A DNA stretch of 48,737 nucleotides, taken from assembly GCA_027492485.1 (NCBI GenBank), contig JAPUER010000016.1, positions 1 through 48,737 on the forward strand. Direction: 5' to 3'. Position 1 is the first letter of the stretch. Every line of letters starts with the position of its first letter. This document shows positions 601 through 46,144 of this stretch, in pieces. The position numbers were made by a program, and so were the translations under genes. A model generated the notes under the pieces. It was given only the letters and a program-made list of their open reading frames with translations. It made no database searches and had not been told where the DNA came from. This DNA is from Betaproteobacteria bacterium. GTDB taxonomy: Bacteria > Pseudomonadota > Gammaproteobacteria > Burkholderiales > Casimicrobiaceae.

Positions 601-716
601 AGCTTTTTTGAAAGAACGACTATCGAATGCCGCTTTGCCGAAAGAATTCGGCAAAGTCGACTCCACTATTTTTTTGCCGCCGAGCCCGGATTGAATGCGC
701 AGTGACGCAAAAAGCT
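601..716. repeat. 116-bp GTCGAC-centred dyad repeat, copy 1
   Basis: AGCTTTT at 601-607, GTCGAC at 656-661 and AAAAGCT at 710-716, with exactly 48 nt between core and end on each side. The left arm contains a perfect 10-bp hairpin (CTTTGCCGAA at 633-642, TTCGGCAAAG at 647-656, loop AGAA). The element lies between the convergent nlpD and ornithine cyclodeaminase genes. Nothing else is recognisable in the rest of the 459-800 spacer. It belongs to a family of seven in the window. Confidence 0.75.
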
Positions 717-800
717 ATAGCGGTGGACCAGGCGTCTGTGCCGCAGCAGGCAAATCGGTGCTCGGGCCTGTTGCCGCGAGTCTGGCGACTGCCGCAACGG

Positions 801-1910
801 TCAAACACACTCAAGCACGTCCAAGGGCACGTCGCGCTGCGGCGCCGGGCCGGTGATCAGCGCCAGCAGGTTCTTCGGGTCGTCCTGCGCGGCAATCAGC
901 GGCAGGCTGGCGATGTCGCCCTGGCTGACGGCGAAGCGGTAGAGATACTGCAACGCCGCGAAATCTTCGATCGCGAAGCCGACCGAGTCGAACACCGTGA
1001 CCTGCGCGTCGTCGGTGCGTCCCGGCGCGTTGCCCGTCAACACTTGCCACAACTCCACCACCGGGAAGTCCGCCGGCATCTGCTGGATGTCGCCCTCGAT
1101 GCGCGTCTGCGGCTCGTATTCGACGAACACGCGGGCTTGCGCCAGCACGTCGCGATGCAGCTCCGTCTTGCCGGGGCAGTCGCCGCCGACGGCGTTGATG
1201 TGCATGCCGGGCACGACCATGTCGGCGCTGACGATGGTGGCGTTGGCCTTGTCGGCGGTCACAGTGGTGACGATGTCGGCGCCGCGCACTGCGGCGGCGG
1301 CGCTGTCGTGCGCCGTCGCGCGCAGCCCCTGCGCGGCGAGATTGGCGAGCAGCTTGGCGGTAGCGGCACGGTCGACGTCGAACAGGCGAAACTCGTCGAT
1401 GCCCAGCATCTCGGCGAAAGCCAGCGCCTGGAACTCGCTCTGGGCGCCGTTGCCGATGATCGCCATCACCCGGCTGTCGGGGCGGGCAAGGGCGCGGGCG
1501 GCCAGCGCGGACGCCGCGGCGGTGCGCAGCGCGGTGGTCAGCGTCATCTCCGACAGCAGCAGCGGCATGCCGGTGTCGACGTCGGCCAACACGCCGAATG
1601 CCATCACCGTCGGCAGCGCGCGCCGCGTGTTCTTCGGGTGGCCGTTGACGTATTTGAACGCGTAGCGGGTGGCGTCCGACACCGGCATCAGCTCGATCAC
1701 GCCGTCCGGCGAATGATTGGCGACGCGCGGCGCTTTGTCGAAATCCGGCCAACGCCGAAAGTCGGCGGCGATGGCATCGGTCAGTTCACGCAGCACACGG
1801 CGCACGCCTCGCAAACGAACGAGGCGTGCGACATCTGCCGGCGACAGGAACAGGGGCTGACGGATGGCGGAGACACGGGTGGCGGGTTGGGCGGCGCGGC
1901 GCATAGGCAT
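801..1910 (-). CDS. ornithine cyclodeaminase / mu-crystallin family protein
   Basis: The 369-residue protein belongs to the ornithine cyclodeaminase/mu-crystallin family. True ornithine cyclodeaminases convert L-ornithine to L-proline and ammonia with tightly bound NAD+; relatives are ketimine reductases or opine-like dehydrogenases. Visible features are the substrate-side segment around GVIELMPVSD and KYVNGHPKN, a Rossmann segment MAIIGNGAQSEFQALAF near the middle, and the conserved INAVGGDCPGKTEL stretch. The length is at the upper end for the family. It is transcribed divergently from an Lrp/AsnC gene 122 bp away, the usual arrangement for control by that regulator. ATG 1910 is used; ATG 1904 is an alternative and neither has a good ribosome-binding site. 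Confidence 0.88.
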   Translation of the reverse strand: MPMRRAAQPATRVSAIRQPLFLSPADVARLVRLRGVRRVLRELTDAIAADFRRWPDFDKAPRVANHSPDGVIELMPVSDATRYAFKYVNGHPKNTRRALPTVMAFGVLADVDTGMPLLLSEMTLTTALRTAAASALAARALARPDSRVMAIIGNGAQSEFQALAFAEMLGIDEFRLFDVDRAATAKLLANLAAQGLRATAHDSAAAAVRGADIVTTVTADKANATIVSADMVVPGMHINAVGGDCPGKTELHRDVLAQARVFVEYEPQTRIEGDIQQMPADFPVVELWQVLTGNAPGRTDDAQVTVFDSVGFAIEDFAALQYLYRFAVSQGDIASLPLIAAQDDPKNLLALITGPAPQRDVPLDVLECV

Positions 1911-1984
1911 GAACAGGAAGTTGCGATGCCTGAAATTCTGGCAACAAGCGGCGTCAATTCATATCGGCAACAATGTGCAAAAAA

Positions 1985-2032
1985 CGTCAAATAACTGACG
2001 AAATGACAAGCATAATTGAATAAAATGACAAG
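1985..2032. promoter_or_regulatory. candidate Lrp/AsnC operator region
   Basis: This AT-rich stretch between the divergent genes holds an inverted repeat, CGTCA (1985-1989) - 6 nt - TGACG (1996-2000). It also holds a 10-nt direct repeat AAATGACAAG at 2001-2010 and 2023-2032, offset by 22 bp (two helical turns). The second copy abuts the ATG at 2033. CATAAT at 2011-2016 could be a -10 hexamer, which would leave a very short leader. Phased repeats are typical of Lrp-family sites; the assignment is inferred. Confidence 0.5.
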
Positions 2033-2458
2033 ATGGACGAAACAGACCACAAGCTGATCGCGCTGCTGCGCACCGATGCCCGTGCCAGTGTGGCCACGCT
2101 GGCACATCGTCTGGGGGTGTCGCGCGGTACCGTGACCAATCGCATCGCGCGGCTCGAAGCGCAGGGCGTGATCGTGGGCTACACCGTGCGTCTGCGGCCC
2201 GACGTCAAGCAGGATCAGATCAACGCCTGGATGAGCATCGCGGTGGAGGGCAACCAGACGCGGCGGGTGATCGCCGAGCTAATGGGCGAGCCGTCGGTGG
2301 CGATCCTGCACGACACCAACGGCCGCTGGGACTTGCTGGCGCAACTGCGCGCCGGCGATCTGGCCGAGATGTCGCAGGCGCTGGAGCGCATCCGCCTGAT
2401 CAAGGGCATCAGCAACACCGAGACCAGCATTCATCTGGTCACCTACCGCACGTCATAG
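2033..2458 (+). CDS. Lrp/AsnC family transcriptional regulator
   Basis: The 141-residue protein has the standard Lrp layout. An N-terminal AsnC-type winged helix occupies about residues 1-60 (MDETDHKLIALLRTDARASV, then LAHRLGVSRGTVTNRIARLE). A C-terminal RAM ligand-binding domain follows (about 65-140), with the family's GYTVRLRPDV opening. It is a DNA-binding protein expected to respond to an amino acid. Its divergent position beside ornithine cyclodeaminase suggests it senses ornithine, arginine or a related amino acid and controls that gene. The ATG directly follows a direct repeat, so translation may start from a near-leaderless mRNA. Confidence 0.93.
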   Translation: MDETDHKLIALLRTDARASVATLAHRLGVSRGTVTNRIARLEAQGVIVGYTVRLRPDVKQDQINAWMSIAVEGNQTRRVIAELMGEPSVAILHDTNGRWDLLAQLRAGDLAEMSQALERIRLIKGISNTETSIHLVTYRTS

Positions 2459-2480
2459 CGTGGTCAAGCCTGTCCGGCCG

Positions 2481-2993
2481 CTATGGCTGCGCGCTGCGTC
2501 GCATCGGCGCGCGGCTTTGCTCGTTGTTGTGCTGCACCAGCTTGGCCAGCAGGCGACAGAACACGGCCTGCTCGTCGGCACTCAAGGGCGCCAGGATGCG
2601 CGTCTGCGCGGCGGCGACCGCAGGCACGATCTTCGCCAACTGGGCGCGGCCGCGGCGGGTGATGGCGAGGCGCTTGCGCCGACGGTCGTCGGCGTCCGCT
2701 GCGCGCGCCAGCAGGCCGCGCTGCTCCAGCCGCAGCACCACCTGGCCGAGGGTGGCGACGTCCACCGCGATGTGGGCGGCGAGCGTCACTTGATCGACTG
2801 TCGGGTGGCGCGACAATTCCGCAAGCAGGGCGAACTGCACCGGCGTCAATTCCTGCCCGCCGGTCTCCTCGGCGAAGATGGCGACGGCGATTTGCTGCGC
2901 GCGGCGGATCAGATGGCCGGGCGCCGTCTGCAAGTCGTACTCCGCCGCCGGCTTGCGGGCGGTATCGCCATGTTTCTGCGCAGCGTTGGCCAT
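2481..2993 (-). CDS. MarR family transcriptional regulator
   Basis: A 170-residue winged-helix protein starting at the ATG of MANAAQKHG. The longer reading frame up to 3098 would run through the operator-like palindrome and is not preferred. The MarR fold is seen in LTPVQFALLAELSRHP (helix 2/3), the recognition region around DQVTLAAHIAVDVATLGQVV, and the wing DADDRRRKRLAITRRGR. MarR proteins are dimeric repressors, often released by aromatic acids. The gentisate catabolism genes lie immediately downstream of its divergent promoter, so control of gentisate ring cleavage is the likely role. It converges with the Lrp gene (22-bp gap). Confidence 0.9.
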   Translation of the reverse strand: MANAAQKHGDTARKPAAEYDLQTAPGHLIRRAQQIAVAIFAEETGGQELTPVQFALLAELSRHPTVDQVTLAAHIAVDVATLGQVVLRLEQRGLLARAADADDRRRKRLAITRRGRAQLAKIVPAVAAAQTRILAPLSADEQAVFCRLLAKLVQHNNEQSRAPMRRSAQP

Positions 2994-3022
2994 TCGTTCT
3001 GCCCTCTTGTGTTTATGCCATG

Positions 3023-3040
3023 TAATAAGTATGCTTATTA
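3023..3040. promoter_or_regulatory. inverted-repeat operator upstream of marR-type gene
   Basis: TAATAAG (3023-3029) - TATG - CTTATTA (3034-3040) is a perfect 7-bp inverted repeat with a 4-bp spacer, in a locally AT-rich patch 30 bp upstream of the MarR-family start. MarR operators are typically 16-20-bp palindromes of this kind. It probably serves autoregulation and possibly control of the divergent gentisate genes. Confidence 0.65.
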
Positions 3041-3148
3041 TAATGTTTGCCGGACCGATGCCAAGCGCAAGTGCAATGGCAGCCGGCACGGTCTGCACGG
3101 CAAGCGGCGGGAGGAGTCATGACCAATAGGGAAGCGCTGAACAAGTCC

Positions 3149-3228
3149 CCGTTCACCCTGAACGAAGTGAAGGGTTTGACGATTGGATCCGGGTTTCAGA
3201 CCCTTCGCCGGCGGCTCAGGGTGAACGG
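3149..3228. repeat. CCCTGA-type interspersed inverted repeat
   Basis: The outer arms are perfect 13-bp inverted repeats, CCGTTCACCCTGA (3149-3161) and TCAGGGTGAACGG (3216-3228). A second inner pair, GAAGGGT (3169-3175) and ACCCTTC (3200-3206), continues the stem. This resembles a widespread proteobacterial intergenic repeat built on the TTCACCCTGA/GAAGGGT core. It lies between the MarR operator and the gentisate dioxygenase start. Confidence 0.7.
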
Positions 3229-3261
3229 AACCTATTTAGTTTCCCTAGCAGGGACAAACCG

Positions 3262-4326
3262 ATGAACGCCGTCGGCAAGCACGCCGCCGTCGCAGCGGAA
3301 CGCGCGGCGCTGTACGCCGAGATGTCGCCGCTGCACCTGACGCCGCTGTGGGAGGTGCTGCACGCGCTGGTGCCAGCGCAGCCGAACACGCCGTGTGTGC
3401 CGGCGCTGTGGCGCTACGACGAGGTGCGTCCGTATCTGCTGCGCGCGGGCGCGGCGATCACCGCCGAGGAGGCCGTGCGCCGGGTGCTGATCCTCGAAAA
3501 CCCGGCGTTGCGCGGCCAGAGCTGCGTGACGCAATCGCTCTATGCCGGGCTGCAACTGATCCTGCCCGGCGAGGTGGCGCCCAGCCATCGCCACACGCAG
3601 AGCGCGCTGCGTTTCGTGGTCGAGGGCCAGGGCGCGTTCACCGCGGTCAACGGCGAGCGCACCACCATGCAGCCGGGCGACTTCATCATCACGCCGCAAT
3701 GGACCTGGCATGACCACGGCAGCGAGGCCGACGGCCCGGTGGTGTGGCTCGATGGTCTCGACATTCCGATGATCCGCTTTTTCGATGCCGGCTTTGCCGA
3801 AAGCGGCGGCGCCGCGCAGCAGCAGATCGTGCGCCCCGAGGGCAACAATTTCGCGCGCTACGGTGCCAACATGCTGCCGCTGCGCCATGATGCGCCGCAC
3901 GGCAGCACCTCGCCGATCTTCAGCTACCCCTACGCGCGCAGCCGCGAGGCGCTGGCGCGGCTGACGCGCGACGGTCCGGTCGATGCCCATGACGGCTGCA
4001 AGCTGCGCTACGTGAATCCGGCCACCGGTGGCTCGCCGATGCCGACGATGGCGACCTTTCTGCAGCTCCTGCCGCGCGGTTTCGCCGGCCGGCCGTACCG
4101 GCAGACCGACGGCACCGTGTTCAGCGTGGTCGAGGGGCGCGGTCGCGCCACGATCGGGCGCGGCGACAGCCAATGGCACTACGATTTCGGTCCGCGCGAT
4201 CACTTCGTGGTGCCGTCGTGGCATACGCTCTCGCTGTCGGCAGCCGACGAATGCGTGCTGTTCAGCTATTCCGACCGGCCGGTGCAGCAGGCGCTCTCCA
4301 TCTGGCGCGAGGAGCGGCTGGCCTGA
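3262..4326 (+). CDS. gentisate 1,2-dioxygenase
   Basis: The 354-residue bicupin protein opens the gentisate (2,5-dihydroxybenzoate) ring with O2 to give maleylpyruvate. The N-terminal cupin carries the Fe(II) ligand region [14 protein letters not shown], followed by [16 protein letters not shown] second cupin near the C-terminus ([22 protein letters not shown]) completes the bicupin. The length is the family norm. Spacing to the next gene, a fumarylacetoacetase-family hydrolase, is 43 bp, so the two probably form one transcript. Maleylpyruvate isomerase, the usual third gene, is not in this window. The divergent MarR regulator is the likely controller. Confidence 0.93.
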
Positions 4327-4369
4327 CTTCGCGGCACTACTTCCGTTTATCGATATTTGTCTGGACATC

Positions 4370-5065
4370 ATGAACTACGTCTTTGCTCCCGCCCCTGTCA
4401 CCTCGCTGCCCGTCGTCGGCTCGGACCAGCGCTTCCCGGTGCGGCGCGTCTACTGCGTCGGCCGCAACTATGTCGAACACGCGCAGGAGATGGGCTTCAG
4501 CGGCCGCGAAGCGCCGTTCTTCTTCATGAAGCCGGCCGATGCCGTGATCCCCTGCGCGGCAGGCGCCACCGCCGAGATCGCCTATCCGAGCCTGACCAGG
4601 AATTTCCATCACGAGGTGGAGCTGGTCGTCGCCATCGGCAAAGGCGGCAAGAACATCGCGCAGGCCGATGCCGCGAAGCACATCTTCGGCTACGCCATCG
4701 GGCTCGACATGACGCGCCGCGATCTGCAGGGCGAGGCCAAGAAGCAGGGCCGGCCGTGGGAGGTGGGCAAGGCGGTCGATCAATCGGCGCCGATGGGGCC
4801 GATCACGCCGATTACCAGGTCAGGCGCAATCGACAAGGGCGCTATCACCCTCACCGTGAACGGCAAGACCACGCAGTCGAGCGACATCGGCAAACTGATC
4901 TGGAACGTCAACGAAGTGATCGAGCATCTCTCGGCGGCATGGGAGCTGCAACCCGGCGACCTGATCATGACCGGCACGCCGGAAGGCGTCGCCGCGGTCG
5001 TCGCCGGGGACGTGATGGTGGCAAGCTGCGCGGGTGTTGAGCCGATGACGGTGAAGGTGGTCTAG
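4370..5065 (+). CDS. fumarylpyruvate hydrolase (fumarylacetoacetate hydrolase family)
   Basis: A 231-residue FAH-fold enzyme starting at MNYVFAPAP; the longer open frame upstream is only the shadow of the dioxygenase gene. Conserved features are CVGRNYVEHAQEMG, the FFFMKPADAV loop, the metal-ligand segment NFHHEVELVVAIGKGG, GYAIGLDMTRRDLQ, and the C-terminal GDLIMTGTPEGV. In the gentisate pathway it hydrolyses fumarylpyruvate (or maleylpyruvate directly) to fumarate/maleate and pyruvate. Its position behind gentisate dioxygenase supports this over the other reactions of the superfamily. Confidence 0.9.
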   Translation: MNYVFAPAPVTSLPVVGSDQRFPVRRVYCVGRNYVEHAQEMGFSGREAPFFFMKPADAVIPCAAGATAEIAYPSLTRNFHHEVELVVAIGKGGKNIAQADAAKHIFGYAIGLDMTRRDLQGEAKKQGRPWEVGKAVDQSAPMGPITPITRSGAIDKGAITLTVNGKTTQSSDIGKLIWNVNEVIEHLSAAWELQPGDLIMTGTPEGVAAVVAGDVMVASCAGVEPMTVKVV

Positions 5066-5107
5066 GAGTCTGCGCGAGGACGAAAACGCAAACTCACCCG
5101 CCGTTAT

Positions 5108-5223
5108 GGCTTTTTGCGGAAATGCCCAATTGGACGGGGCAAAGCGCTGAATTTGCGGGTAAGTCGACTCCCGATTGGCAAGTTGGCTCCGCAGCCGAGC
5201 GCGGAAGGACTGGGTAGCGGCCC
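5108..5223. repeat. GTCGAC-centred dyad repeat, copy 2 (left arm clear, right arm degenerate)
   Basis: GGCTTTT at 5108-5114 and GTCGAC at 5163-5168 are separated by exactly 48 nt, with GAAA, CCAATT and GGGGC at the positions used in other copies. On the right side no AAAAGCT is found at the expected 5217-5223, so the second arm is lost or strongly diverged. The element lies between convergent genes. Confidence 0.6.
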
Positions 5224-5263
5224 TCCCCCGGCGAGCGGGGAAGGAGTCGCGAATCGGCCGGCA

Positions 5264-5803
5264 CTACTGCTGCCGGTCTTCCGCCTTGAAGCTGCCGCCG
5301 GTGATGCTCAGTTTTGCCTTGGTCTTCACTTCCACCAGATCAAAGCTGAAGCTGCCTTCGATGACCTTGCCTTTGACCGAGGTGATTTCCAGCTGATTTT
5401 TGCCGTCGGCCAGCCGGTAGTTGGCTTGCGGTTCGCCGAACGGCTGTTTGCTGACGCCTTTGACAAAGCTGACCTCGCAACTGCGGCTGCCGCTGCCGGC
5501 AAACGTGAACTTGACCGGTTTGCCGTCGTAGTTGCGACAATTGATGGAGAGTTTGTCGACCGGCGTCTTCGGCGGCGGATAAGCGGCCGCGCCTTTGCTG
5601 CTGGCGATCAGGTTGAGCACGCCCTTGGTCGGAACCAGATACAGGATGGTGTCGTCGTCGCCCTCGAATGGCTTGCCGTCGACGGTGGCGCTCAGGCGCT
5701 GTGTTTCGGCCTGCGCCGCGACGGGCAGCACGAGGCCCGCGAGCGCGGCGGCAAGGGTGAGCGCGCGGGCGCGGCGAAGGGCGAGGGATGGTGCGTTGTG
5801 CAT
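5264..5803 (-). CDS. secreted protein of unknown function
   Basis: A 179-residue protein starting at MHNAPSLALRR. The first about 30 residues form a Sec signal peptide: basic n-region, hydrophobic ALTLAAALAGLVLPV, then VAAQAETQ as the likely cleavage site. The mature part is beta-rich and starts as an exposed edge, LSATVDGKPFEGDDDTILYL. It has two Cys residues (INCRNY and SRSCEV) that could form a disulphide, and it ends in KLSITGGSFKAEDRQQ. I do not recognise the family; the overall look is of a periplasmic beta-sandwich. It is in the same direction as, and 83 bp downstream of, the haem-linked diguanylate cyclase. Confidence 0.75.
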   Translation of the reverse strand: MHNAPSLALRRARALTLAAALAGLVLPVAAQAETQRLSATVDGKPFEGDDDTILYLVPTKGVLNLIASSKGAAAYPPPKTPVDKLSINCRNYDGKPVKFTFAGSGSRSCEVSFVKGVSKQPFGEPQANYRLADGKNQLEITSVKGKVIEGSFSFDLVEVKTKAKLSITGGSFKAEDRQQ

Positions 5804-7311: not shown

Positions 7312-9036
7312 TCAGCGCGGTCCGGCGCTTTCCCGCTCCTGCAGTGCTCGCCACATGACCTTGCCGGAGCCGCTCTTTGGCAAGGCGTCGGCAAACTCGA
7401 CGATGCGCGGCACCTTGTAGGCGGCCATGTTGTCGTGCGCCCAGTCGATGATTTGCTGCGCCGTGGTGTCCCTGGCGTCATGGCGCAGCACGATCACTGC
7501 CTTGACCGTCTCGCCGCGATAGGCGTCGCGGGTCGAGATCACGCAGGCTTCCGCCACCGCCGGATGGCGAAAGAGCAGGGCTTCCACTTCTGCCGGCCAT
7601 ACCTTGAATCCGCTCGCGTTGATCATGCGCTTGAGGCGGTCGGTCATGAAGAAGTAGCCGTCTTCGTCGACCCGGCCCATGTCGCCGGAGCGGAAGAACG
7701 GCTTGCCGTCGATCTCGACGAATGCCGCTTCGGTCGCGGCGCGGTTCTGCCAGTAGCCCTTGAACACCTGCGGACCATGAATGACGATTTCGCCGGATTC
7801 GCCGACGGCGCAGGGCGCCAGCGTGTCGGGGTTGACCACCCGCGCGTCGGTGCTCATGTAGGGCACCCCAAGGCATTGCTGTTTGGGCGCGTCGGGCGGA
7901 TTGGAATGCGACGGCGCGGCGGTCTCGGTAAGACCGTAGCCCTCGACGAACTTGAGGCCGAATTGATCAAGCAGTTTCTGTGCGACGGCCTGCGGCATCG
8001 CCGCGCCGCCGCCACCGATGTATTGCAGACTGCTCAGGTCGTACTGCGCCGCGTTCGGGCTGGCGAGCAGGTCGATCATCATGGTCGGCACCATCGTCCA
8101 CGACGTCACGCGGTAAGTCGAGATCAGCCGCCCGGCGACATCGCGGTCCCAGCGCGGCATGATCACCGCGCAGGAGCCAAGATAGATCGGCACGTGCAGG
8201 CCGTACAGCATGCCGGTGATGTGGAACATCGGCACCACCGCCAGACTGACCGCGGCTGAACTGCCGTTGGCCCAGACCGCGCCGCTCACCACGTTGTGCA
8301 TGATGCTGCGATGGGTATGCATGCAACCTTTCGGCAGACCGGTGGTGCCCGAGGTGTAGGGCAGCACCGCCAGATCGTCGGCACCGGCCGTCGGCGCCGT
8401 CGCGGCATGGCCGGCGGCCATTGCGTCACGCCACACGCTCGCGTAGGCAGGCATGTCGACCGCCTGGTCGAGCCATGCGCGCCAGGCGTCCGGGAAGCCG
8501 GCGGCAGGCAGCGTGCCGCCGTTCATTTCATCCGTGTAGCGGGTGACCAGCAGGTGACGTAATGCCAGATCGGGTTGCGCCGCGGCAACCTCGCGGTTGG
8601 CGGCGATCCATTCGGCGGCCAGATCGCTGCCCACGATTGCCACCCGTGCCGCCGGATCGGTGATGTAGTGGGTCAGTTCGGCCGCCTTGTTCATCGGATT
8701 GACCGGCACCACCACCGCATCGGCGCGCAACACGGCGTAGTAGGCGATGACGAATTGCGGTGAGTTCTGCAGACAGACGGCGACGCGGTCGCCCTTGTTC
8801 ACGCCGGCAACCCGTTGCAGCCAGCCGGCGAGCTTTTCTACCGATGCATGCAGTTCGCGATAGCTGATCGCGCGGTCAAAGAAGACGAAGGCGGCGCGAT
8901 CGGCGTAGCGGCGGCAGGTGATGTCGAGGTTCGCCCACAGCGACGTATCGGGCGTGTCCAGCTCGCGCGGCAGCCGCTTGGGCCAGAACGCGAAGTGGCG
9001 GGTTGGATCGGCGGGTAACGCCGCTGCGGTCGACAT
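7312..9036 (-). CDS. long-chain-type acyl-CoA synthetase (AMP-binding)
   Basis: A 574-residue ANL-superfamily enzyme that activates a carboxylic acid with ATP and CoA. The P-loop-like motif TSGTTGLPKG, the A5 motif EGYGLTET, the aspartate motif FRSGDMGRVDEDGYFFMTDR and the C-terminal catalytic lysine region PKSGSGKVMWR are all present. The length and the GFKVWPAEVEALL hinge match fatty-acid/aryl-CoA ligases of the FadD class. The substrate cannot be read from sequence. It stands alone, transcribed from a spacer that holds a 163-bp palindromic repeat. Confidence 0.9.
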   Translation of the reverse strand: MSTAAALPADPTRHFAFWPKRLPRELDTPDTSLWANLDITCRRYADRAAFVFFDRAISYRELHASVEKLAGWLQRVAGVNKGDRVAVCLQNSPQFVIAYYAVLRADAVVVPVNPMNKAAELTHYITDPAARVAIVGSDLAAEWIAANREVAAAQPDLALRHLLVTRYTDEMNGGTLPAAGFPDAWRAWLDQAVDMPAYASVWRDAMAAGHAATAPTAGADDLAVLPYTSGTTGLPKGCMHTHRSIMHNVVSGAVWANGSSAAVSLAVVPMFHITGMLYGLHVPIYLGSCAVIMPRWDRDVAGRLISTYRVTSWTMVPTMMIDLLASPNAAQYDLSSLQYIGGGGAAMPQAVAQKLLDQFGLKFVEGYGLTETAAPSHSNPPDAPKQQCLGVPYMSTDARVVNPDTLAPCAVGESGEIVIHGPQVFKGYWQNRAATEAAFVEIDGKPFFRSGDMGRVDEDGYFFMTDRLKRMINASGFKVWPAEVEALLFRHPAVAEACVISTRDAYRGETVKAVIVLRHDARDTTAQQIIDWAHDNMAAYKVPRIVEFADALPKSGSGKVMWRALQERESAGPR

Positions 9037-9115
9037 TGCTTCAATCCTCCTGGTCGGCTTGCGGCCCTGCGCACGCTTCGACTGCGCATTGTCGCCCGAA
9101 GGCAGGGTCGAATCC

Positions 9116-9278
9116 TAGTGTCCTGATTTGGAAATTCGTTGATGAAATCGCCCGAGTATCAACGCCATGCAGCATTGCCAATCCTCGCCATAGCTACGGC
9201 TATGGCTGCGGTTGGCGCCTTGCCTGACATTGATATCGGCCGATTTCATATTCAACGAATTTCCAAATCAGGACACTA
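9116..9278. mobile_element. 163-bp MITE-like palindromic element with perfect 27-bp terminal inverted repeats
   Basis: Bases 9116-9142 and 9252-9278 are perfect 27-bp inverted repeats beginning TAGTGTCCTGATTTGG. The symmetry continues inward with interruptions (TGAAATCG..CGATTTCA; TTGGC/GCCAA). It ends in a central hairpin, GCCATAGC-TACG-GCTATGGC. There is no room for a transposase, so this is a non-autonomous element or a relic. A CTAG is formed at both outer edges, possibly a target-site preference. It lies between the divergent acyl-CoA synthetase and ModE genes. Confidence 0.8.
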
Positions 9279-9378
9279 GTGTGCCTTTTCCAGTTTGTAT
9301 CCTATGTGCGGAAACTGTACGCCGAGCGTTACCGTCTATATTGCCGAAACACGCCGCATTCCTGTTTTCCGGCAAACC

Positions 9379-12680: not shown

Positions 12681-12795
12681 AGCTTTTCGTCGAAAGCGTT
12701 CATTTAATTAGGCAAAAAGCGTAAAAAACTGAAAGTCGACTTTCGGAAAAATCGCGCTGCTTGTCCAATGCGGATGCGCGTCGCACGGAAAAGCC
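12681..12795. repeat. GTCGAC-centred dyad repeat, copy 3
   Basis: AGCTTTT at 12681-12687, GTCGAC at 12735-12740 and AAAAGCC at 12789-12795, with 47 and 48 nt between core and ends. It begins 10 bp after the modC stop, so it could help end that transcript. The rest of the spacer to the carbonic anhydrase start at 12954 shows no other structure. Confidence 0.7.
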
Positions 12796-14066: not shown

Positions 14067-16313
14067 CTAGGCGTCGGCCCGGCCCACGTACTGAAAGTCC
14101 ACCTTCGCGTTCGCGGGATTCACGGCGGCGATCTTCACCCGCACGCGCTCGCCGAGCGAGAGCGTGAAGCCGCTGCGCTGGCCGACCAGGGTGACCTTGT
14201 CGCGGCCCAGCTCGTAGTAGTCGCGCGGCAGCGTGGTGGCGTGGATGAGGCCGTCGGCGAAGGTTTCGTCGAGCGTGACGAAGGCACCGAACGGCACCAC
14301 GCCGGACACCGTGCCGTTGAATTCCTCGCCGAGATGGGCTTCGAGGTATTTCGATTTCAGGAACTGCGTCACTTCGCGCGAGGCGATGTCGGCGCGGCGC
14401 TCGTTGGCGCTGCAAATGTCGCCAAGCTGCTGCCAGTCCTCGTTCGAATACTTCTTGCCCGCCAGCACCGCCTTGATGCCGCGATGCACCAGCAAGTCCG
14501 GGTAGCGCCGAATCGGCGACGTGAAATGCGCGTAGTGATCGTAGGCGAGGCCGAAGTGCCCGGCATTCTTCGGTGTGTAAATTGCCTGCGGTAGCGAACG
14601 CAGCAGGACGGTGTGCAGCGCCGGCGCGTCGATGCGGCCGCGCGTTTGCTCGATGAGCAGCGCGTAATCCTTTGGAGATGGTCGTTCGCCGCCACCCAGC
14701 GTCAGGCCGCGTAGCGACAGCGTTTCGCGCAGTGCGGCGAGTTTTTCCGGCAGCGGAATGTCGTGCACACGGTAGAGCAGCGGCTGCTTGGCGCGGGCGA
14801 GGTACTGCGCGGTGCAGACGTTGGCCGCCAGCATCATCTCCTCGATCAGTTTGTGTGCGTCATTGCGCACCGCCGGGCGGATGCTGGCGACGCTGCCGTC
14901 GTCGTTGAACGAGAAGACGGCTTCCTGTCCTTCGAAATCCAGCGCACCGCGGCGCTCGCGGACTTCGCGGAACAGTTTGTACAGCGTGTACAGCGTCTTC
15001 AGCGAGGCTTCGATGCTGCCGGCCTTCGGCTTCGCCGTCTCCAGCGCTGGCAGTTGCGCGGCGACTTCGGTGTAGGTCAGCCGCGCCTTCGAGTTCATCA
15101 CCGCCGCGTAGAACTCGAAGCCGGTGATGTGCCCGGCCGCGCTGACTTTCATGTCGCAAACCATGCACAGGCGGTCGACGTTCGGCCGCAGGCTGCACAG
15201 CTCGTTGGACAGCGCCTCCGGCAGCATCGGAATCACGCGGCGCGGAAAGTACACGCTGGTGGTGCGTTCGCGCGCATCGGCATCGAGCGCCATCGTCGGC
15301 TTCACGTAATGCGAAACGTCGGCAATGGCGACCACCAGCCGGTAACCGCGACCGGATTTCTCGGCGTAGACCGCGTCGTCGAAGTCCTTCGCTGTTTCGC
15401 CGTCGATGGTGACCAGTGCCATCTCGCGCAGGTCAACACGGCCCTTGCGGTCGGCCGCGGCCACCTTGTCGCCGTAGGCCGCCGCTTCCTTCAGCGTCGC
15501 CGGCGAGAAGCGGTAAGGCAGGTTGTGCTTGCGAATCGCGATTTCGAGCTCGATGTCCGACGAATCCTCGTCGCCGATCACCTCCACGATCTCGCCGATG
15601 GCGTCGTCGTAGGGCGTCGGCTGGCGCGTGATTTCGGCCACCACGATCTGGTTGACCGTGGCGGTGGCGAGCTTGTTGCGCGGGATCACGATGTCCTGAT
15701 TGATCCGCCGCTCCGAGGCGACCAGAAACCATACGCCGTCCTTGCTGCGCAGCTTGCCGACCACGCGATGGTTGGCGCGCTGCAGGATGCCGACGATTTC
15801 GCCGGTGGTTTTGCCGTCGCGCGTGCTGCCGGTGGCCTGCACCGCCACGCGATCGCCATGCAGCACGGCGCGCATGGCGTCTTCGGTCAAAAAGATGTCG
15901 TCGCCACCCTGGTCGAGCTTGACGAAGCCGTAGCCATCGGGGTGGCCGATGATGGTGCCGACGAGCGCATTGGGCGGCACCAGCGGCGTGGCTGCGGGAG
16001 TGGCTGCCGGCGTTGCGGCTTTGATGGTGGCCTGTTTGCGCTTGCCAACTGCTGCCGGTGCCGTCGCAGTGGTCACTGCCGTCTGCTGGCGCGCAGCGCG
16101 CGACACCGGCCTGGCGGCGGGTTTTGCGGTAGCGGTGGAAGATTTCGGCGCCACGCCGGACTTGGTGCGGGTTTTGGCGGCGGTGTTCTTCCGGTTGTTG
16201 TCCGCCGGCTTCGGTGCCTTGCTGGACGCGGTTTTTTGCGTTTTTCGGGAACTGGTTTTACCCGTATTTTGGGCAGTTACGACAGGTTGTTTTGCAGTTT
16301 TTTTCGTTATCAA
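14067..16313 (-). CDS. rnr: ribonuclease R
   Basis: A 748-residue 3'-5' exoribonuclease that degrades structured RNA. A Lys/Ala-rich N-terminal tail precedes the cold-shock domains (GTIIGHPDGYGFVKLDQGGD, from about 115). The RNB domain carries the catalytic aspartates in DGETAKDFDDAVYAE and ADVSHYV, and an S1 domain closes the protein (SGVVPFGAFVTLDETFADGLIH). The open frame runs to 16430, but that part overlaps tRNA-Leu. TTG 16313 is the only credible start downstream of the tRNA, without a strong ribosome-binding site. The protein lacks the long basic C-terminal tail of the E. coli enzyme. Confidence 0.92.
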   Translation of the reverse strand: MITKKTAKQPVVTAQNTGKTSSRKTQKTASSKAPKPADNNRKNTAAKTRTKSGVAPKSSTATAKPAARPVSRAARQQTAVTTATAPAAVGKRKQATIKAATPAATPAATPLVPPNALVGTIIGHPDGYGFVKLDQGGDDIFLTEDAMRAVLHGDRVAVQATGSTRDGKTTGEIVGILQRANHRVVGKLRSKDGVWFLVASERRINQDIVIPRNKLATATVNQIVVAEITRQPTPYDDAIGEIVEVIGDEDSSDIELEIAIRKHNLPYRFSPATLKEAAAYGDKVAAADRKGRVDLREMALVTIDGETAKDFDDAVYAEKSGRGYRLVVAIADVSHYVKPTMALDADARERTTSVYFPRRVIPMLPEALSNELCSLRPNVDRLCMVCDMKVSAAGHITGFEFYAAVMNSKARLTYTEVAAQLPALETAKPKAGSIEASLKTLYTLYKLFREVRERRGALDFEGQEAVFSFNDDGSVASIRPAVRNDAHKLIEEMMLAANVCTAQYLARAKQPLLYRVHDIPLPEKLAALRETLSLRGLTLGGGERPSPKDYALLIEQTRGRIDAPALHTVLLRSLPQAIYTPKNAGHFGLAYDHYAHFTSPIRRYPDLLVHRGIKAVLAGKKYSNEDWQQLGDICSANERRADIASREVTQFLKSKYLEAHLGEEFNGTVSGVVPFGAFVTLDETFADGLIHATTLPRDYYELGRDKVTLVGQRSGFTLSLGERVRVKIAAVNPANAKVDFQYVGRADA

Positions 16314-16321
16314 TCTATAAT
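16292..16321 (+). promoter_or_regulatory. tRNA-Leu promoter inside the 5' end of rnr
   Basis: TTGCAG (16292-16297), an 18-bp spacer and a perfect TATAAT (16316-16321) lie 17 bp before the tRNA-Leu 5' end. The proposed TTG start of rnr (16311-16313, opposite strand) falls inside the spacer, so the two genes share the same DNA for promoter and coding start. Confidence 0.65.
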
Positions 16322-16338
16322 CTCGGTTTGCCTGAATT

Positions 16339-16423
<85 letters not shown>

Positions 16424-16511
16424 ATCGCAAATGAGCGAATTGGGTAGGTTGTTAGGCCAGACGAGGTTGTAACCCAGCGCTGGCAACAAAGCAAAGTCAA
16501 GGCAACCAGAC

Positions 16512-16649: not shown

Positions 16650-16765
16650 ACCTTTTTAGTGAAACCCGCATTCAGTATGGGCTAAACACCTACAAAACGC
16701 GTAAGTCGACTTGGACAAATTTCGTCGTTCAAGCCCAAATAAAATGGGCCTTCCAGCCAAAAGCT
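16650..16765. repeat. GTCGAC-centred dyad repeat, copy 4
   Basis: ACCTTTT at 16650-16656, GTCGAC at 16705-16710 and AAAAGCT at 16759-16765, with exactly 48 nt on both sides. GAAA, CATT and GGGC occur at the shared positions in the left arm. The outer part of the right arm doubles as the terminator of the minus-strand gene at 16860. It lies between the tRNA and that convergent gene. Confidence 0.75.
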
Positions 16766-20867: not shown

Positions 20868-20961
20868 AATCCGGGTGGTGAGCCATCTTTCAAATTGGCG
20901 GTCGACTTTAGTGAAAAACGCCGCCAACGCCCATATCTCACGGGTGTTTCAGCAAAAAGCC
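20846..20961. repeat. GTCGAC-centred dyad repeat, copy 5 (right arm clear, left end overwritten)
   Basis: GTCGAC at 20901-20906 and AAAAGCC at 20955-20961 are separated by exactly 48 nt, and the arm carries the GAAA and GGGC positions. The left outer end falls inside another inverted repeat, and only an inner CAATCCGGG stretch resembles other copies. The following 300 bp to the porin start contain no recognisable gene. Confidence 0.6.
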
Positions 20962-34056: not shown

Positions 34057-34171
34057 AGCTTTTCGTTGAAAACGGCGATTCCATCGGCGCTTTGGCCGAA
34101 AAAGTAGTCTGGTCGACTATTGCCTTTTTGGCGTCATAACCCTTGCGGAATATGCGTTCCCTTGAAAAGTT
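34057..34171. repeat. GTCGAC-centred dyad repeat, copy 6
   Basis: AGCTTTT at 34057-34063, GTCGAC at 34112-34117 and AAAAGTT at 34165-34171, with 48 and 47 nt between core and ends. GAAA and the A-tract fall at the shared positions, and the upstream flank GATAC matches copy 4. It lies between convergent genes. Confidence 0.75.
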
Positions 34172-41626: not shown

Positions 41627-42624
41627 GCCAGATTGCGCGCGCTGGCGATGTCGCTGGCGCCCGCCGGGAAGGCCGGAATCTCCTCGACCACGCGGTCGAT
41701 CACGTAGCGCGGCCGGTCGCGCACCTGAAGGTAGATGCGGCCGACGTATTCGCCGACCAGACCGAGGCCGAACAACACCATGCCAATCAGGAAAAATTCG
41801 AGAATGTCGCGGTCGAGCATGGCGAGCAGCGCCTCGCGCAGCGGCAGCGTCGTCATGCGATAAACCATCAGCGCGATGTAGGTCAGCACCGAGCCCACCG
41901 CAACCAGCATGCCGAGCAGCGAGAACATCTGCAGCGGCATCAGCGAGAAGCCGGTCATCAGGTCGAAATTGAGCCGCAGCAGCTGGTAGAACGAATACTT
42001 CGACTCGCCGGCGGCGCGTTCGGCATGGGCCACCACGACTTCGGTCGGATTCATTGCGAAGGTGTAGGCGAGCGCTGGGATGAAGGTGCGCACCTCGCGT
42101 GTCTGGTTGATCAGCTCGACGATGCGGCGCGAATAGGCGCGCAGCATGCAGCCCTGATCGGTCATCTTGATGCGGGTGGTCTTCTCGCGGATGCGGTTGA
42201 GCAGCTTCGACGCCGCGCCGCGCCACCAGGCGTCGCCGCGGCGCAGGTCGCGGATCGAGCCGACGTAGTCGTGCCCTTCGCGATACGCCGCGAGCAGCTT
42301 GTGGATTTCTTCCGGCGGGTTTTGCAGGTCGGCGTCCAGCGTGACTGCGATTTCGCCGCGCACATGCGCGAAGCCGGCCAGAATGGCGCTGTGCTGGCCG
42401 AAGTTGCCGGAGAACAGGATGACCCGCGTCACGTCGGCGCGTTTGCCCTGCTGGTCGAGCAGCAGCGCGGCGGAGCGGTCACGGCTGCCGTCGTTGATGA
42501 AGATGACCTCGTAGCTCGTGTTCAGCGCATCGAGCGCCGGATAGAGCCGCGCGAACAGTTCGGCGAGCACGGCTTCCTCGTTGTAGACCGGAATGACAAC
42601 GGAGAGCGTCGGATGCTGGTTCAC
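41623..42624 (-). CDS. arnC: undecaprenyl-phosphate 4-deoxy-4-formamido-L-arabinose transferase ArnC
   Basis: A 333-residue membrane glycosyltransferase of family GT2. Residues 1-220 form the GT-A domain, with LSVVIPVYNEEAVLAELFAR, the DXD-like LDADLQNPPEEI and GCMLRAYSRRIVE. Two C-terminal membrane helices (SLLGMLVAVGSVLTYIALMV; FFLIGMVLFGLGLVGEYVGR) anchor it. It transfers L-Ara4FN from UDP to undecaprenyl phosphate. It overlaps arnB upstream by four bases and the formyltransferase downstream by four. Confidence 0.94.
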   Translation of the reverse strand: MNQHPTLSVVIPVYNEEAVLAELFARLYPALDALNTSYEVIFINDGSRDRSAALLLDQQGKRADVTRVILFSGNFGQHSAILAGFAHVRGEIAVTLDADLQNPPEEIHKLLAAYREGHDYVGSIRDLRRGDAWWRGAASKLLNRIREKTTRIKMTDQGCMLRAYSRRIVELINQTREVRTFIPALAYTFAMNPTEVVVAHAERAAGESKYSFYQLLRLNFDLMTGFSLMPLQMFSLLGMLVAVGSVLTYIALMVYRMTTLPLREALLAMLDRDILEFFLIGMVLFGLGLVGEYVGRIYLQVRDRPRYVIDRVVEEIPAFPAGASDIASARNLA

Positions 42625-43799
42625 TGCAGGCCGCCTTCCTTGAGCACGGCGACCAGCGCGGCGCAGACGTAGTCGACATCGCGCTCGCTCAGCCCGGCGT
42701 GCAGCGGCAGCGTCAGCGTGGTGTTGGCGATCAGCTCGGTATTGGGCAGATCGCCCGCCTGCCAGCCCTGCTTGCGGAACAGGGTGGTCAGATGCGGCGA
42801 CTCATAGGAAACGCTGGTCGCGACCTGCCTTGCCTTCATCACGTCCATCACCTGCGGCCGCGTCATCGTCAGCCGCTCCAGCGGCAGGCGGATGGCGAAC
42901 AGGTTCCAGCTATGGCCGGCCTCGTCGCCGGCGTGGCCCGGATGCGGCAACAAGTCTTCCGCCAGCACGCCGCGCAGCCTGGCAAGGTAGCGTTGCGCCA
43001 GCCGGCGGCGGTGGTCGCAGAAGCGGTCGAGCTTCGCAAGCTGTGCGCGGCCGATGGCGGCGTTGACGTCCGGCATGTTGAACTTGCCGCCGGGGAAATC
43101 GACGTCGCGCGTCTGGTCGGGCAATCGCGAAATGCCGTGAAAGCGCAGCACTTCGACGCGCCGGGCATCGGCAAGATCGTTACAGACCAGCGCACCGCCT
43201 TCGATGGTGGTGATGTTCTTGTTCGGGTGAAACGAGAACAGCGCGATGTCGCCGAAGCTGCCGATCGCCTTGCCGCGCCAGCGCGAACCGACGGCCAGCG
43301 CGGCGTCCTCGATCACGCGCAGTTTGTGCTGTTGCGCGAAGGCGTAAAGCGCGTCCATATCGCAGGCGAGCCCGGCGTAATGGGTCGGGATGATCGCCCT
43401 GGTGTGCGGCGTCAGACGGCGCGCAGCGTCGGTCAGATCGATGTTGCGGCTGCGGAGGTCGACGTCGACGAACACGGCTTTGGCGCCGACTTTCGCGACC
43501 ATGTTGCCGCTGGAGAAAAAGGTCTGCGCGCCGATCAGCACTTCGTCGCCGGCGCCGATGCCGAGCAGTTGCAGCGCGACCTCGAGCGCCGCCGTTTCGC
43601 TGGTCAAGACGCGCGTCGGGCGGCCACCGAAATACGCCGACAGCTCGTTCTCCAGCGCGGCGACGTTGGGGCCGGAGGCGATCCAGCCGGAACGCAGCAC
43701 GGCGTCGGCGGCGGCGAATTCCTCCTCGCCGAGCAGCGGCGCGGCAAAGGCGATCGGTTTGGCGGGCGGCGTCAAATCGAAGGCAGGGTCACGAGTCAT
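42621..43799 (-). CDS. arnB: UDP-4-amino-4-deoxy-L-arabinose aminotransferase ArnB
   Basis: A 392-residue PLP-dependent aminotransferase of the DegT/DnrJ/EryC1 family that converts UDP-L-Ara4O to UDP-L-Ara4N with glutamate. Visible are PTHYAGLACDMDAL, IEDAALAVGSRWRGKAIGSF, and the PLP-lysine segment FSFHPNKNITTIEGG. The start is ATG 43799, overlapping the flippase-subunit stop as ATGA; five extra upstream codons are possible. Confidence 0.94.
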   Translation of the reverse strand: MTRDPAFDLTPPAKPIAFAAPLLGEEEFAAADAVLRSGWIASGPNVAALENELSAYFGGRPTRVLTSETAALEVALQLLGIGAGDEVLIGAQTFFSSGNMVAKVGAKAVFVDVDLRSRNIDLTDAARRLTPHTRAIIPTHYAGLACDMDALYAFAQQHKLRVIEDAALAVGSRWRGKAIGSFGDIALFSFHPNKNITTIEGGALVCNDLADARRVEVLRFHGISRLPDQTRDVDFPGGKFNMPDVNAAIGRAQLAKLDRFCDHRRRLAQRYLARLRGVLAEDLLPHPGHAGDEAGHSWNLFAIRLPLERLTMTRPQVMDVMKARQVATSVSYESPHLTTLFRKQGWQAGDLPNTELIANTTLTLPLHAGLSERDVDYVCAALVAVLKEGGLQ

Positions 43800-44176
43800 T
43801 TCGAAAAGTTCCACGAGAGCAGGACGACTCCAATTACGATGAAGCCGATGCCGACGATCTTTTGCATCGTCAGCGATTCACCGAACAGCCAGTACGCGAT
43901 CAGCGCATTGACCACATAGCCGACCGACAGCAGCGGGTAGGCCACGCTCACCGGCGCCCGCGACAGCGTGGCAATCCAGGTGAACAGACTGATGCCGTAG
44001 CAGGCGAAGCCGGCCCAGAACCACGGCACGCGGGCGATCTGCATGAGCGTCTGCACGGTGTCGGCGCCGCCGAAGCTGACCGTGCCGACCACATTGGTGC
44101 CAGCCTTCAGGAACAGTTGCGCCGCGGCGTTGAGCAGCACGCTGGTGATGGCAATGGCGAAGGCGGTGGCAGTCAT
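43796..44176 (-). CDS. SMR/EamA-type membrane protein, ArnE/ArnF-like flippase subunit
   Basis: A 126-residue protein with four hydrophobic segments (ITSVLLNAAAQLFLKAGTNV; WFWAGFACYGISLFTWIATL; a helix around YPLLSVGYVVNALIAYWLFG; VGIGFIVIGVVLLSWNFSK). The length and the SVLLNAAAQLFLK opening match ArnE/ArnF, which flip undecaprenyl-phosphate-L-Ara4N to the periplasm. Enterobacteria need two subunits; only one is present here, so it may act as a homodimer or have a partner elsewhere. It sits between arnT and arnB. Confidence 0.85.
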   Translation of the reverse strand: MTATAFAIAITSVLLNAAAQLFLKAGTNVVGTVSFGGADTVQTLMQIARVPWFWAGFACYGISLFTWIATLSRAPVSVAYPLLSVGYVVNALIAYWLFGESLTMQKIVGIGFIVIGVVLLSWNFSK

Positions 44177-44254
44177 GCCGTGGATTTTCCTATGAGCGCC
44201 GGAAAACCGACGGTGGCGATGTGCGGGACGACGCAGCCGGTGCGCAGGCAGTAT

Positions 44255-46024
44255 TCAGGGCCGGGTATGGCGGGCGACGATCACGCGGCGCAGATCGGCG
44301 GCGACGACGTGGTACTCCAGCCCGTGCAGGTCGAAGCGCGGCAACTGGTCGAAATCGGTGATCGCGTAGCCGCGTTCGAGCGCCTGCCATTCCTCGGCAA
44401 AATCGGTGAAGTTGAAGCGCACCTTGTCCGGCTCGGCGGCAGCGCCGAGGCCCAGTTCGTCGAGATAGTCGACCAGCGTTGTGGTGCGTTCCAGATACGG
44501 CTGCAGGGTTTGCTCGAACAGACCGACCGAATAGAAGCGGTCCATCTTGCTGTACTCCGGCTCGGCGGCGAGGAAGTCCTGCACCAGTTGCTTGCTTGAG
44601 GTGCTGGGCGCCAGCGTTTCGTAGCCGCTGGCGGCGATGCTGCCAGCCACGGTGGCGAGCACGGCGGCGAGCAGCATGGCGTCGAGGCGGCGGCCGCGGC
44701 GGTTGATCTGCCAGGCAGCCAGCACGGCCAGCGCAAAGCAGATGGCGCTGGCGATGATGTACAGCGCAAAACCGTCGATCATGCCCGCGGTGTAGGCATC
44801 GTTGACAAATTGCCCGCGTAGCAGCGGTAGGGCGAGCAGCAGCAGCGGCACGATGGCGAACAGCAGCAGCAGGCGGCGGAACGAGCGATCCGACCCTGAC
44901 AGCATGACCGGCGTCAGCAGCAGGGCCGCGGCGGGCGTGATCGGCAGCAGGTAGGACGGCAGTTTCGACTTCGACACGCTGAAAAAGAGGAAGATGAACA
45001 CGCACCAGATGACGAGAAACAGCGGCACGTTAAGCGTCGCCCCGGCGTAAGTCTGGCGCAGCGTGCGCCAGCCGTCGCGGTGCAGCAGCTTGATCAGCGC
45101 CGGCGTCCACGGCATCAGGCCCACGATCACCAGCGGCACGAAGTAGAACAGCGAGCCGATGCGGTCGTGCTCCTCGTTGGCGAAACGGCCGAAATGCTCG
45201 TAAATGAAGAAGAAGTTGGCCCACTCGGGGTTGCGCGACTGCACCAGGATCGGCCACGGCGCGGCGATCAGCAGGAACACCAGCGGCCCCCAGACCCACT
45301 CCAGCCGGGTCAACAGCCGCCACTGCCGGGTGACCAGCAGGTAGATGACGAAGATGGCGCCGGGCAGCACGATGCCGATCAGGCCCTTGGACAGGAAGGC
45401 CAGCGCCGCGCCCGCCCAGGCCGCCACCATCCAGCCGCGGGCGACGCCCGGCGATTGCCCCTGCACGCCAAAGCCGCGCAGCATGCCGACCAGGGTCAGC
45501 GTCATGAACGCGCTCAGGCCCATGTCGAGCGTGTTGATGTGGGCGATCAGGAAGTAGTAGCACATGGCGCCGAGCACGGCGGTGGTGACCAGTGCGGTGT
45601 CGCGGCCGGCGAGGGCGCGGGCGGCGCACCAGGTGAACAGCAGGCCGAGCAGGCCGGTGAACGCCGGCCACCAGCGACCGGTGAAATTGTTGAGGCCGAA
45701 ACTGTCGATCGCCAGCGCGGTGGCCCAGTATTGCAGCGGCGGCTTCTCGAAATACTTGAGGTCGTTCAGCCGCGGCGTCACGTAGTCGCCGGAGACGGCC
45801 ATCTCGCGCGCGATTTCGGCGTAGCGGCCTTCGTCCGGGCGAACCAGGGTGCGGTAGGCGGACGGGATCAGCCAGGCGGCCAGGAACAGCGCGGCGAGCA
45901 GCGCCAGCAGGGGGGAAGGCAGTTTCACGGCGGACGATGCTAACAGAGGGGTGGCGCCTCGTTGCGGAGCGCTTCCGGTAGCCGTCGCGGTGGTGGACGA
46001 GGGGCTTGGCGACGTCTGATTCAT
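44255..46024 (-). CDS. arnT: lipid A 4-amino-4-deoxy-L-arabinose transferase ArnT
   Basis: A 589-residue GT39/GT83-type membrane enzyme with about 12 transmembrane helices. It moves L-Ara4N from undecaprenyl phosphate to the lipid A phosphates, lowering negative charge and giving resistance to polymyxin and cationic peptides. The first periplasmic loop holds the catalytic acid region RTLVRPDEGRYAEIAREMA. YFEKPPLQYWATALA follows, as in ArnT. The first about 35 residues are Ser/Thr-rich and unstructured. It is the first gene of the arn operon, just downstream of a dyad repeat. Confidence 0.92.
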   Translation of the reverse strand: MNQTSPSPSSTTATATGSAPQRGATPLLASSAVKLPSPLLALLAALFLAAWLIPSAYRTLVRPDEGRYAEIAREMAVSGDYVTPRLNDLKYFEKPPLQYWATALAIDSFGLNNFTGRWWPAFTGLLGLLFTWCAARALAGRDTALVTTAVLGAMCYYFLIAHINTLDMGLSAFMTLTLVGMLRGFGVQGQSPGVARGWMVAAWAGAALAFLSKGLIGIVLPGAIFVIYLLVTRQWRLLTRLEWVWGPLVFLLIAAPWPILVQSRNPEWANFFFIYEHFGRFANEEHDRIGSLFYFVPLVIVGLMPWTPALIKLLHRDGWRTLRQTYAGATLNVPLFLVIWCVFIFLFFSVSKSKLPSYLLPITPAAALLLTPVMLSGSDRSFRRLLLLFAIVPLLLLALPLLRGQFVNDAYTAGMIDGFALYIIASAICFALAVLAAWQINRRGRRLDAMLLAAVLATVAGSIAASGYETLAPSTSSKQLVQDFLAAEPEYSKMDRFYSVGLFEQTLQPYLERTTTLVDYLDELGLGAAAEPDKVRFNFTDFAEEWQALERGYAITDFDQLPRFDLHGLEYHVVAADLRRVIVARHTRP

Positions 46025-46028
46025 ATAC

Positions 46029-46144
46029 AGCTTTTTATTGAAACGTCCATTGGAAAAGGGCTACGGGCTGAATATCGCTAAAACTCGACTTATTGCATTT
46101 TCGTGTCGTGAGCCCAATGAGATAGGCGTTTAACGTAGTAAGTT
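46029..46144. repeat. GTCGAC-centred dyad repeat, copy 7
   Basis: AGCTTTT at 46029-46035 and a core reading CTCGAC at 46084-46089 are separated by exactly 48 nt. The left arm shows GAAA, CCATT and GGGC at the shared positions. The right end at 46138-46144 (GTAAGTT) is degenerate but at the expected distance. It lies between the divergent arnT and TetR genes, 4 bp from the arnT start. Confidence 0.65.

Follow-up and report, generated by a model that had tools for sequence, protein, structure and literature searches.

A family of intergenic DNA elements of about 116 bp was identified in the genome of a Betaproteobacteria bacterium of the Casimicrobiaceae, seven of them in the 48,737-nucleotide stretch analysed here (the window; contig C16:1-48737 of the source genome G000, 4.12 Mb in 83 contigs). 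The element is a DNA site, two-fold symmetric overall, with three dyads, one central and two lateral, and its distribution along the chromosome is non-random, being more even than random intergenic placement. With moderate confidence, we interpret it as a composite docking site for a putative sequence-specific protein complex that would form a node of chromosome architecture or insulation. A literature search of open-licence papers turned up no description of such a family.

The pattern AGCTTTT-N42..52-GTCGAC matched 220 times in G000 (112 + 108), compared with 2 matches for a reversed-pattern control, and the exact two-armed pattern matched 45 times compared with none, so that the genome holds many copies beyond those in the window. 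A scan with an iteratively retrained position weight matrix, with genes called using our own hexamer model, detected 73 elements above 20 bits in 813.6 kb of G000 including the window, 60 of them two-armed; a smaller first sample of 442.7 kb, scanned with a different matrix and leaving a single 18-bit peak uncounted, had given 41. Extrapolation of this density suggests about 370 elements per genome. Peak scores in G000 were bimodal: of 135 peaks above 8 bits, 130 exceeded 30, three fell at 20–30, none at 14–20 and two at 8–14. The same was seen with four species pooled (G000, G005, G012 and G018), where 312 of 326 peaks above 8 bits exceeded 30 and none lay at 14–20. No arm in three Markov shuffles per species scored above 14 bits (the G000 shuffles gave one value above 8), and a chance origin of the family is excluded. 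In G005, assembled as a single contig, 85 exact arms (control, 0) lay between 20 kb and 4.42 Mb of a 4.47-Mb sequence. A de novo dyad search was a weak instrument, recovering the ends in 80 kb of G018 and missing them in 80 kb of G000 and also in G010 and G006; on C16 it was disturbed by runs of N and a tandem array. At about 268.7 kb of that contig there is a tandem array with a 66-bp period that contains TAGCTA.

All 148 two-armed elements in the four species were 114–117 bp long, with a detector that allowed 46–49 nt per arm and 112–118 bp in total; looser searches (42–52 nt arms, 110–122 bp) gave equal sizes with few exceptions. A typical G000 arm reads AaC followed by AGCTTTTtg.tgaAA.cccCaTT..AattGGGCt.a.agcc..attTt...aAAAGTC, with its mirror image after it. 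An element comprises TWAY-AGCTTTT ends, one lateral dyad box per arm, centred at about arm position 25 and about 33 bp from the core centre, tracts of A and T only (arm positions 44–46 are nearly exclusively A or T) and a core mostly centred on TCGA. The boxes are kept and the filler is near-random, in line with the fixed metrics and variable filler described in the first-pass annotation. The same annotation had placed roughly one box per helical turn, which did not hold: of seven species sets, five had the strongest period of their information profile at 13.5–14 nt, G018 had it at about 10 and G016 at about 24.5. Box sequences vary among species, the lateral box being AACGACCGCC..GGCGGTCGTT-like in G012, G013 and G019 and GCCCAATTTAATTGGGC-like in G010, and the core TTTTCGAAAA-like in G006; despite these variants, the ends, size and arrangement are constant across the species sets. 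Two of 57 G000 elements (for example, locus L032) belong in both arms to the ACGAC-GTCGT type, the dominant one in G012 and G013. Two close pairs about 65 bp apart, at G012 C15:88843/88908 and G005 stretch b:30757/30823, resemble elements with an extra arm.

The seven elements of the window lie where they had been reported and score 42.5–67.5 bits per arm with a species matrix trained on G000 arms, these included. They are listed below with the lateral boxes of one of them.

601–716, unstranded: element 1, two-armed, 116 bp; core GTCGAC at 656–661; convergent gap; arms 43 and 46 bits.
5108–5168, plus strand: element 2, single clear arm and core GTCGAC at 5163–5168; convergent gap; 53 bits.
12681–12795, unstranded: element 3, two-armed, 115 bp; core at 12735–12740; tandem gap; arms 61 and 56 bits.
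16650–16765, unstranded: element 4, two-armed, 116 bp; core at 16705–16710; tandem gap; arms 55 and 68 bits.
16664–16684, unstranded: left lateral dyad box of element 4, arm positions about 15–35, placed from the arm consensus.
16731–16751, unstranded: right lateral dyad box of element 4, placed from the arm consensus.
20901–20961, minus strand: element 5, single clear arm and core at 20901–20906; divergent gap; 47 bits.
34057–34171, unstranded: element 6, two-armed, 115 bp; core at 34112–34117; convergent gap; arms 42.5 and 42.5 bits.
46029–46144, unstranded: element 7, two-armed, 116 bp; core CTCGAC at 46084–46089; divergent gap; arms 66 and 52 bits.

Positions of elements are conserved between species. 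Among gene pairs adjacent in both G000 and G005 (median protein identity 90%), eight gaps carried an element in both species, one in G000 only, none in G005 only and 71 in neither (Fisher P = 5.8e-6 for gaps of 100 bp or more; 17 of the 71 empty pairs were that long in both). The corresponding counts (both, first only, second only, neither) were 3, 1, 1 and 68 (12 long; P = 0.02) for G000 and G012, 2, 0, 0 and 12 (2 long) for G000 and G018, 1, 0, 0 and 11 for G018 and G005, and 0, 0, 0 and 32 for G012 and G005; those for G018 and G012 (0, 1, 0, 0) are unreliable, with a median identity of 25%. A detector restricted to two-armed elements gave, for G000 against G005, 4, 0, 1 and 52, the single G005-only case being element 5, which is one-armed in G000 and whose orthologous G005 gap carries a two-armed element. 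Against G012, G018, G014 and G010 it gave 1, 1, 0 and 27; 3, 0, 0 and 13; 0, 0, 0 and 9; and 0, 1, 0 and 16, respectively. The 14 orthologous G000–G005 arms were identical at 0.76 of box, 0.37 of filler and 0.45 of outer-flank positions, compared with 0.68, 0.33 and 0.26 for non-orthologous arms.

Individual sites of the window agree with these counts. The gene downstream of element 3 encodes a hexapeptide-repeat (gamma-carbonic-anhydrase-like) protein and has its called start about 159 bp from the element; its G005 orthologue has an element upstream at a matching distance. The gap of element 7, between genes for an ArnT-type transferase and a TetR-type protein, is likewise occupied in G005 and G018. 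Element 6 follows a BamE-domain gene, and matching places are occupied in G005, G014, G018, G016 and G013, the neighbouring gene itself having been verified for G018 only. The deaminase–BamE gene pair thus has an element downstream in at least six of 17 loci, counting G000; this is a lower bound, since scanning relied on a model built from GTCGAC-type arms and some loci are truncated. At this site the arms are of ATAT-GGGC type (CCATTATCGAATATGGGCT) in G005 and clearly of ACGAC-GTCGT type (ACGACTGCATGGCGGTCGT) in G013, which indicates that the site persisted and its boxes changed with the species. Because boxes vary by species, the sites probably coevolve with something acting in trans.

The family is confined, in the genomes searched, to one genus, whose members are mostly uncultured. 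The exact two-armed pattern was found in 11 of 64 genomes of the family, all from this genus, and, in a sample of 399 genomes from the order that included 7 members of the genus, in three, all of them members. A first profile, R1, matched 14 of the 64, all of the genus; a second, R2, built from the G006, G009 and G010 variants, matched 16 of the 17 genus members and none of the 21 other genomes in the same search. The genus member G015 (2.6 Mb) matched neither R1 nor R2, and G020, a small genome, has few elements. In 80 kb scanned of G043, from a sister genus, no element was found; its contig C1 has many clustered REP-like GTCGGGCT...AGCCCGAC / GTCGGGCTGAAGCCCGAC repeats at about 25–46 kb (loci L324 and L325; REP, repetitive extragenic palindrome). 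A scan of species genomes yielded 90 stretches, and among the 80 listed, 79 came from Burkholderiales or from unplaced Pseudomonadota/Proteobacteria metagenome-assembled genomes. These stretches overlap the genus set (JAEUPL corresponds to G012; JANXNI, G018; JANXUB, G016; JAGNQL, G013; JAKPSO, G019; JAFEDD, G014; JANXNO, G017), and JACMNN elements match G011 by element sequence. A match in Microvirga lupini (L150) was judged by eye to be a chance match and was kept out of the models. One clear element was seen on a viral contig of 12.5 kb (L269, IMGVR_UViG_3300049488_000082) at 8843–8957; the contig also encodes a phage minor tail protein and a primosomal-type protein, and a phage or prophage of the genus may borrow the site. 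A second viral contig (L327) was discarded as a carrier, as it matched the pattern and none of the boxes.

Elements occur once per 11.1 kb in G000, 11.5 in G018, 11.7 in G012 and 11.9 in G005, with median spacings of 10.2, 9.8, 10.8 and 10.1 kb, respectively; three close pairs (65–200 bp apart) were counted as separate elements. In the same order of species, the coefficients of variation of spacing were 0.63, 0.61, 0.62 and 0.53, compared with 0.91, 0.94, 0.88 and 0.83 when elements were placed in random intergenic gaps (P = 0.0003, 0.0047, 0.0090 and 0.0067) and 0.90, 0.92, 0.85 and 0.78 when gaps were weighted by length (P = 0.0002, 0.0050, 0.0080 and 0.0167). Spacings below 3 kb made up 4–6% of the total, compared with 15–21% in the weighted null (P = 0.0005, 0.014, 0.032 and 0.086).

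Statistics on gaps and genes rest on our own gene calls, in which start positions are rough. Nearly all elements were intergenic, as the first-pass annotation had stated for all of them, with 2 of 171 in the four species inside called genes. A preference for convergent genes, to which its count of four in seven might point, was not upheld: 40 of 224 convergent and 34 of 217 divergent gene pairs carried an element (P = 0.61), as did 86 of 1166 tandem pairs. An apparent convergent enrichment among gaps of at least 100 bp (39 of 95, compared with 34 of 168 divergent and 86 of 415 tandem) disappeared on all gene pairs; it arose because the element itself lifts short gaps past the cut-off. Element edges lay at a median of 33 bp from flanking stop codons and 111 bp from start codons. 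After subtraction of 116 bp, occupied gaps compared with element-free gaps measured 60 and 46 bp when convergent, 216 and 179 bp when divergent, and 165 and 43 bp when tandem. Convergent and divergent gaps are thus otherwise normal and about 116 bp longer with an element, and together with the longer tandem gaps this fits a location at transcription-unit boundaries rather than in operon interiors. These data also bear on the possibility, which we consider unlikely, that the elements are dispersed operators of a global transcription regulator that wraps three dyads and regulates the flanking genes; wrapping regulators of this kind are Lrp/AsnC-like in behaviour. Dyad boxes with A/T tracts do resemble multi-dimer operators, and elements occur in divergent and tandem gaps, with start codons a median of 111 bp away. 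However, stop codons are nearer than starts, convergent gaps are occupied as often as divergent ones, and even spacing would not be expected of operators.

Under the reading that we favour, one protein, or several, would load onto the three dyads as a central and two lateral dimers and would bend or wrap about 116–134 bp, helped by the AT tracts, to make a node. Such a node could serve as a loop anchor or as a barrier against the diffusion of supercoils or the spread of transcription. Since the nodes lie between transcription units, about 10 kb apart and more evenly than random intergenic placement gives, they would most likely act on chromosome architecture. Purifying selection for protein contacts, we infer, keeps the boxes. 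The elements would in this respect be comparable with matS, a 13-bp motif present in 23 copies in one macrodomain at a mean of one per 35 kb, as given in the excerpted sections of PMC6907758. The matS sites are dispersed, protein-bound and structure the chromosome, as is proposed for the elements; unlike matS bound by MatP, the elements have 116 bp and three dyads, number about 370 per genome and are chromosome-wide in G005.

Several observations weigh against a docking site of this kind. Arms of the same element in G000 resembled each other more than partner-shuffled arms (0.426 compared with 0.398, P = 0.0035), also after removal of the two elements that are ACGAC-type in both arms (0.425 compared with 0.405, P = 0.028), and the type scores of arms belonging to one element are correlated (r = 0.48), so that some element-level history remains in G000. 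In G000 and G012, arms have folds about 1.2 kcal/mol more stable than those of column-shuffled arms (z = -2.9 to -4.7). Box centres follow no strict 10.5-bp repeat, and since 23 of 171 elements in the four species (about 13%) are one-armed, full symmetry is not always required. The combined P for spacing over the four species, 3.6e-7 with the gap-length-weighted null, is optimistic, because these species share ancestry and some sites. The architectural role is proposed from spacing and location.

The folding excess is an argument for an RNA-level element, in which transcribed arms would act as paired terminators or as processing or stability signals at the ends of transcription units. Whole elements also folded better than dinucleotide shuffles (mean z = -1.8 in G000, -2.4 in G012 and -1.8 in G018; 30 elements each), and elements tend to follow stop codons. 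However, an element's arms do not pair with each other, as swapping partners left folding unchanged (z = -0.8, -0.1, 0.5 and 0.4), and swapping halves between arms left little of the excess (z = -0.3 to -2.1 in G000 and G012), with G018 showing the opposite direction. Arms of G005 showed no clear excess over column shuffles (z = -1.7 and -1.2), nor did those of G018 (z = 0.7 and -0.7). Box symmetry alone yields some folding, position-locked covariation inside arms was at noise level, and divergent gaps are occupied too. Rfam matched only a tRNA in the window and, in ten element loci, gave one match (E = 0.3) far under the gathering score. An RNA element is thus rejected, less firmly than a mobile repeat, and we consider it distinctly unlikely. 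A terminator-like GC hairpin was seen by eye inside one arm at G000 C16:127093-127207 and is kept in G005. A simple hairpin or cruciform was dismissed, as the arms lack mutual pairing and within-element likeness is weak. With arms unpaired, boxes kept and filler near-random, the evidence favours the putative multi-contact protein site that the first-pass annotation had preferred over simple hairpins.

The other possibility raised in the first-pass annotation was a structured mobile repeat. A miniature repeat of this kind, spread by a transposase with the AGCTTTT ends as its substrate, would account for the high copy number, the intergenic location and the terminal inverted repeats AGCTTTT/AAAAGCT, a feature shared with miniature inverted-repeat transposable elements (MITEs). 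That occupied convergent and divergent gaps are longer by about one element suggests that elements may once have inserted, and the weak likeness of arms within G000 elements would also agree. Within-element likeness was 0.462 compared with 0.445 in G012 (P = 0.08), with no excess in G005 or G018; a bigger excess with other species pooled was attributed to species mixing, with which the single-species tests (G018, G005) agree. No clear recent copies were found: the top identity between arms, 0.70–0.73, did not leave the range of 200 column shuffles in any of six species; in two it exceeded the 95% value of the shuffles (JAEUPL, 0.73 compared with 0.71; JAKPSO, 0.71 compared with 0.67). A scan of 148 two-armed elements for target-site duplications (offsets 0–6 on each side, lengths 2–9) found none, the best excess being 3 seen with 0.7 expected. 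These negative results, with the conservation of positions between species, lead us to reject a mobile repeat, which we regard as very improbable; the weak likeness and the two species above the 95% value fit the small weight left to a mobile origin.

Bacterial MITEs such as ERIC and Correia/NEMIS, as described in PMC2229807, are about 100–200 bp long and intergenic with inverted ends; they are mostly A+T-rich, with target duplications, TA ends and long stem-loops in their transcripts. The elements are like them in size, inverted ends and intergenic place and differ in lacking target duplications and alike copies, with no long stems between arms seen. REPs are palindromes of 20–40 bp (PMC3733652). 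They are often linked to genes for REP-associated tyrosine transposases (RAYT). No such link was seen here: 20 loci (58.7 kb), drawn from a larger set of Y1_Tnp matches, contained one element, where about five would be expected by density, in a search with a detector weaker for the G006–G010 variants, and in G020, which carries elements, no Y1_Tnp match was found. REPs of Escherichia coli and the bacterial interspersed mosaic elements (BIMEs) resemble the elements in being intergenic, palindromic and present in hundreds per genome; the elements differ in sharing boxes only, with unpaired arms, conserved positions and even spacing. BIMEs/REPs have been proposed as supercoil-diffusion barriers and gyrase targets (excerpts of PMC6907758 and PMC3733652). 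The barrier role proposed for BIMEs in the former is the closest known function, with likeness in the proposed role and not membership.

Targeting of E. coli REPs by gyrase, as reported in the sections cited of PMC3733652, also speaks for a dedicated docking and cleavage site of a gyrase-like topoisomerase, which would cut at the central four bases TCGA between symmetric wrapped arms. TCGA is the part of the core common to most species sets. Gyrase is conserved and has a footprint and a consensus of its own; the total extent and symmetry of the elements resemble that footprint, but the core mismatches that consensus, the lateral boxes vary between species while gyrase is conserved, and the family is confined to one genus. 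We therefore regard this alternative as highly unlikely.

Two further features were noted in the window. A perfect 28-bp inverted repeat with a loop of 109 nt (CTAGTGTCCTGATTTGG...) at 9115–9279 is not like the elements and is possibly a small repeat derived from an insertion sequence. The tRNA gene matched by Rfam lies at 16339–16420, inside the RNase R frame (14067–16430) in its upstream portion, and the true start of RNase R is probably nearer 16076, as placed by the gene model.

Taken together, kept and spaced boxes, fixed sites, near-random filler, equal density and species-wide change of boxes point to a coevolving protein complex, and the cognate protein should itself evolve, because the recognised boxes differ between species. 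A bolder proposal, which we put forward tentatively, is that the genus encodes domain boundaries in its DNA, as a lattice of about 370 three-dyad sites of 116 bp, about 10 kb apart, for a bespoke putative complex, with boxes rewritten at hundreds of loci in step with the protein and sites staying put. G015, without a profile match, and G020, with few elements, are natural controls. In a genus with a dedicated site family that is evenly spaced and conserved in position, sequence-specified chromosome partitioning would become testable, and box replacement at orthologous loci would offer a striking example of coevolution between a trans-acting factor and hundreds of sites.

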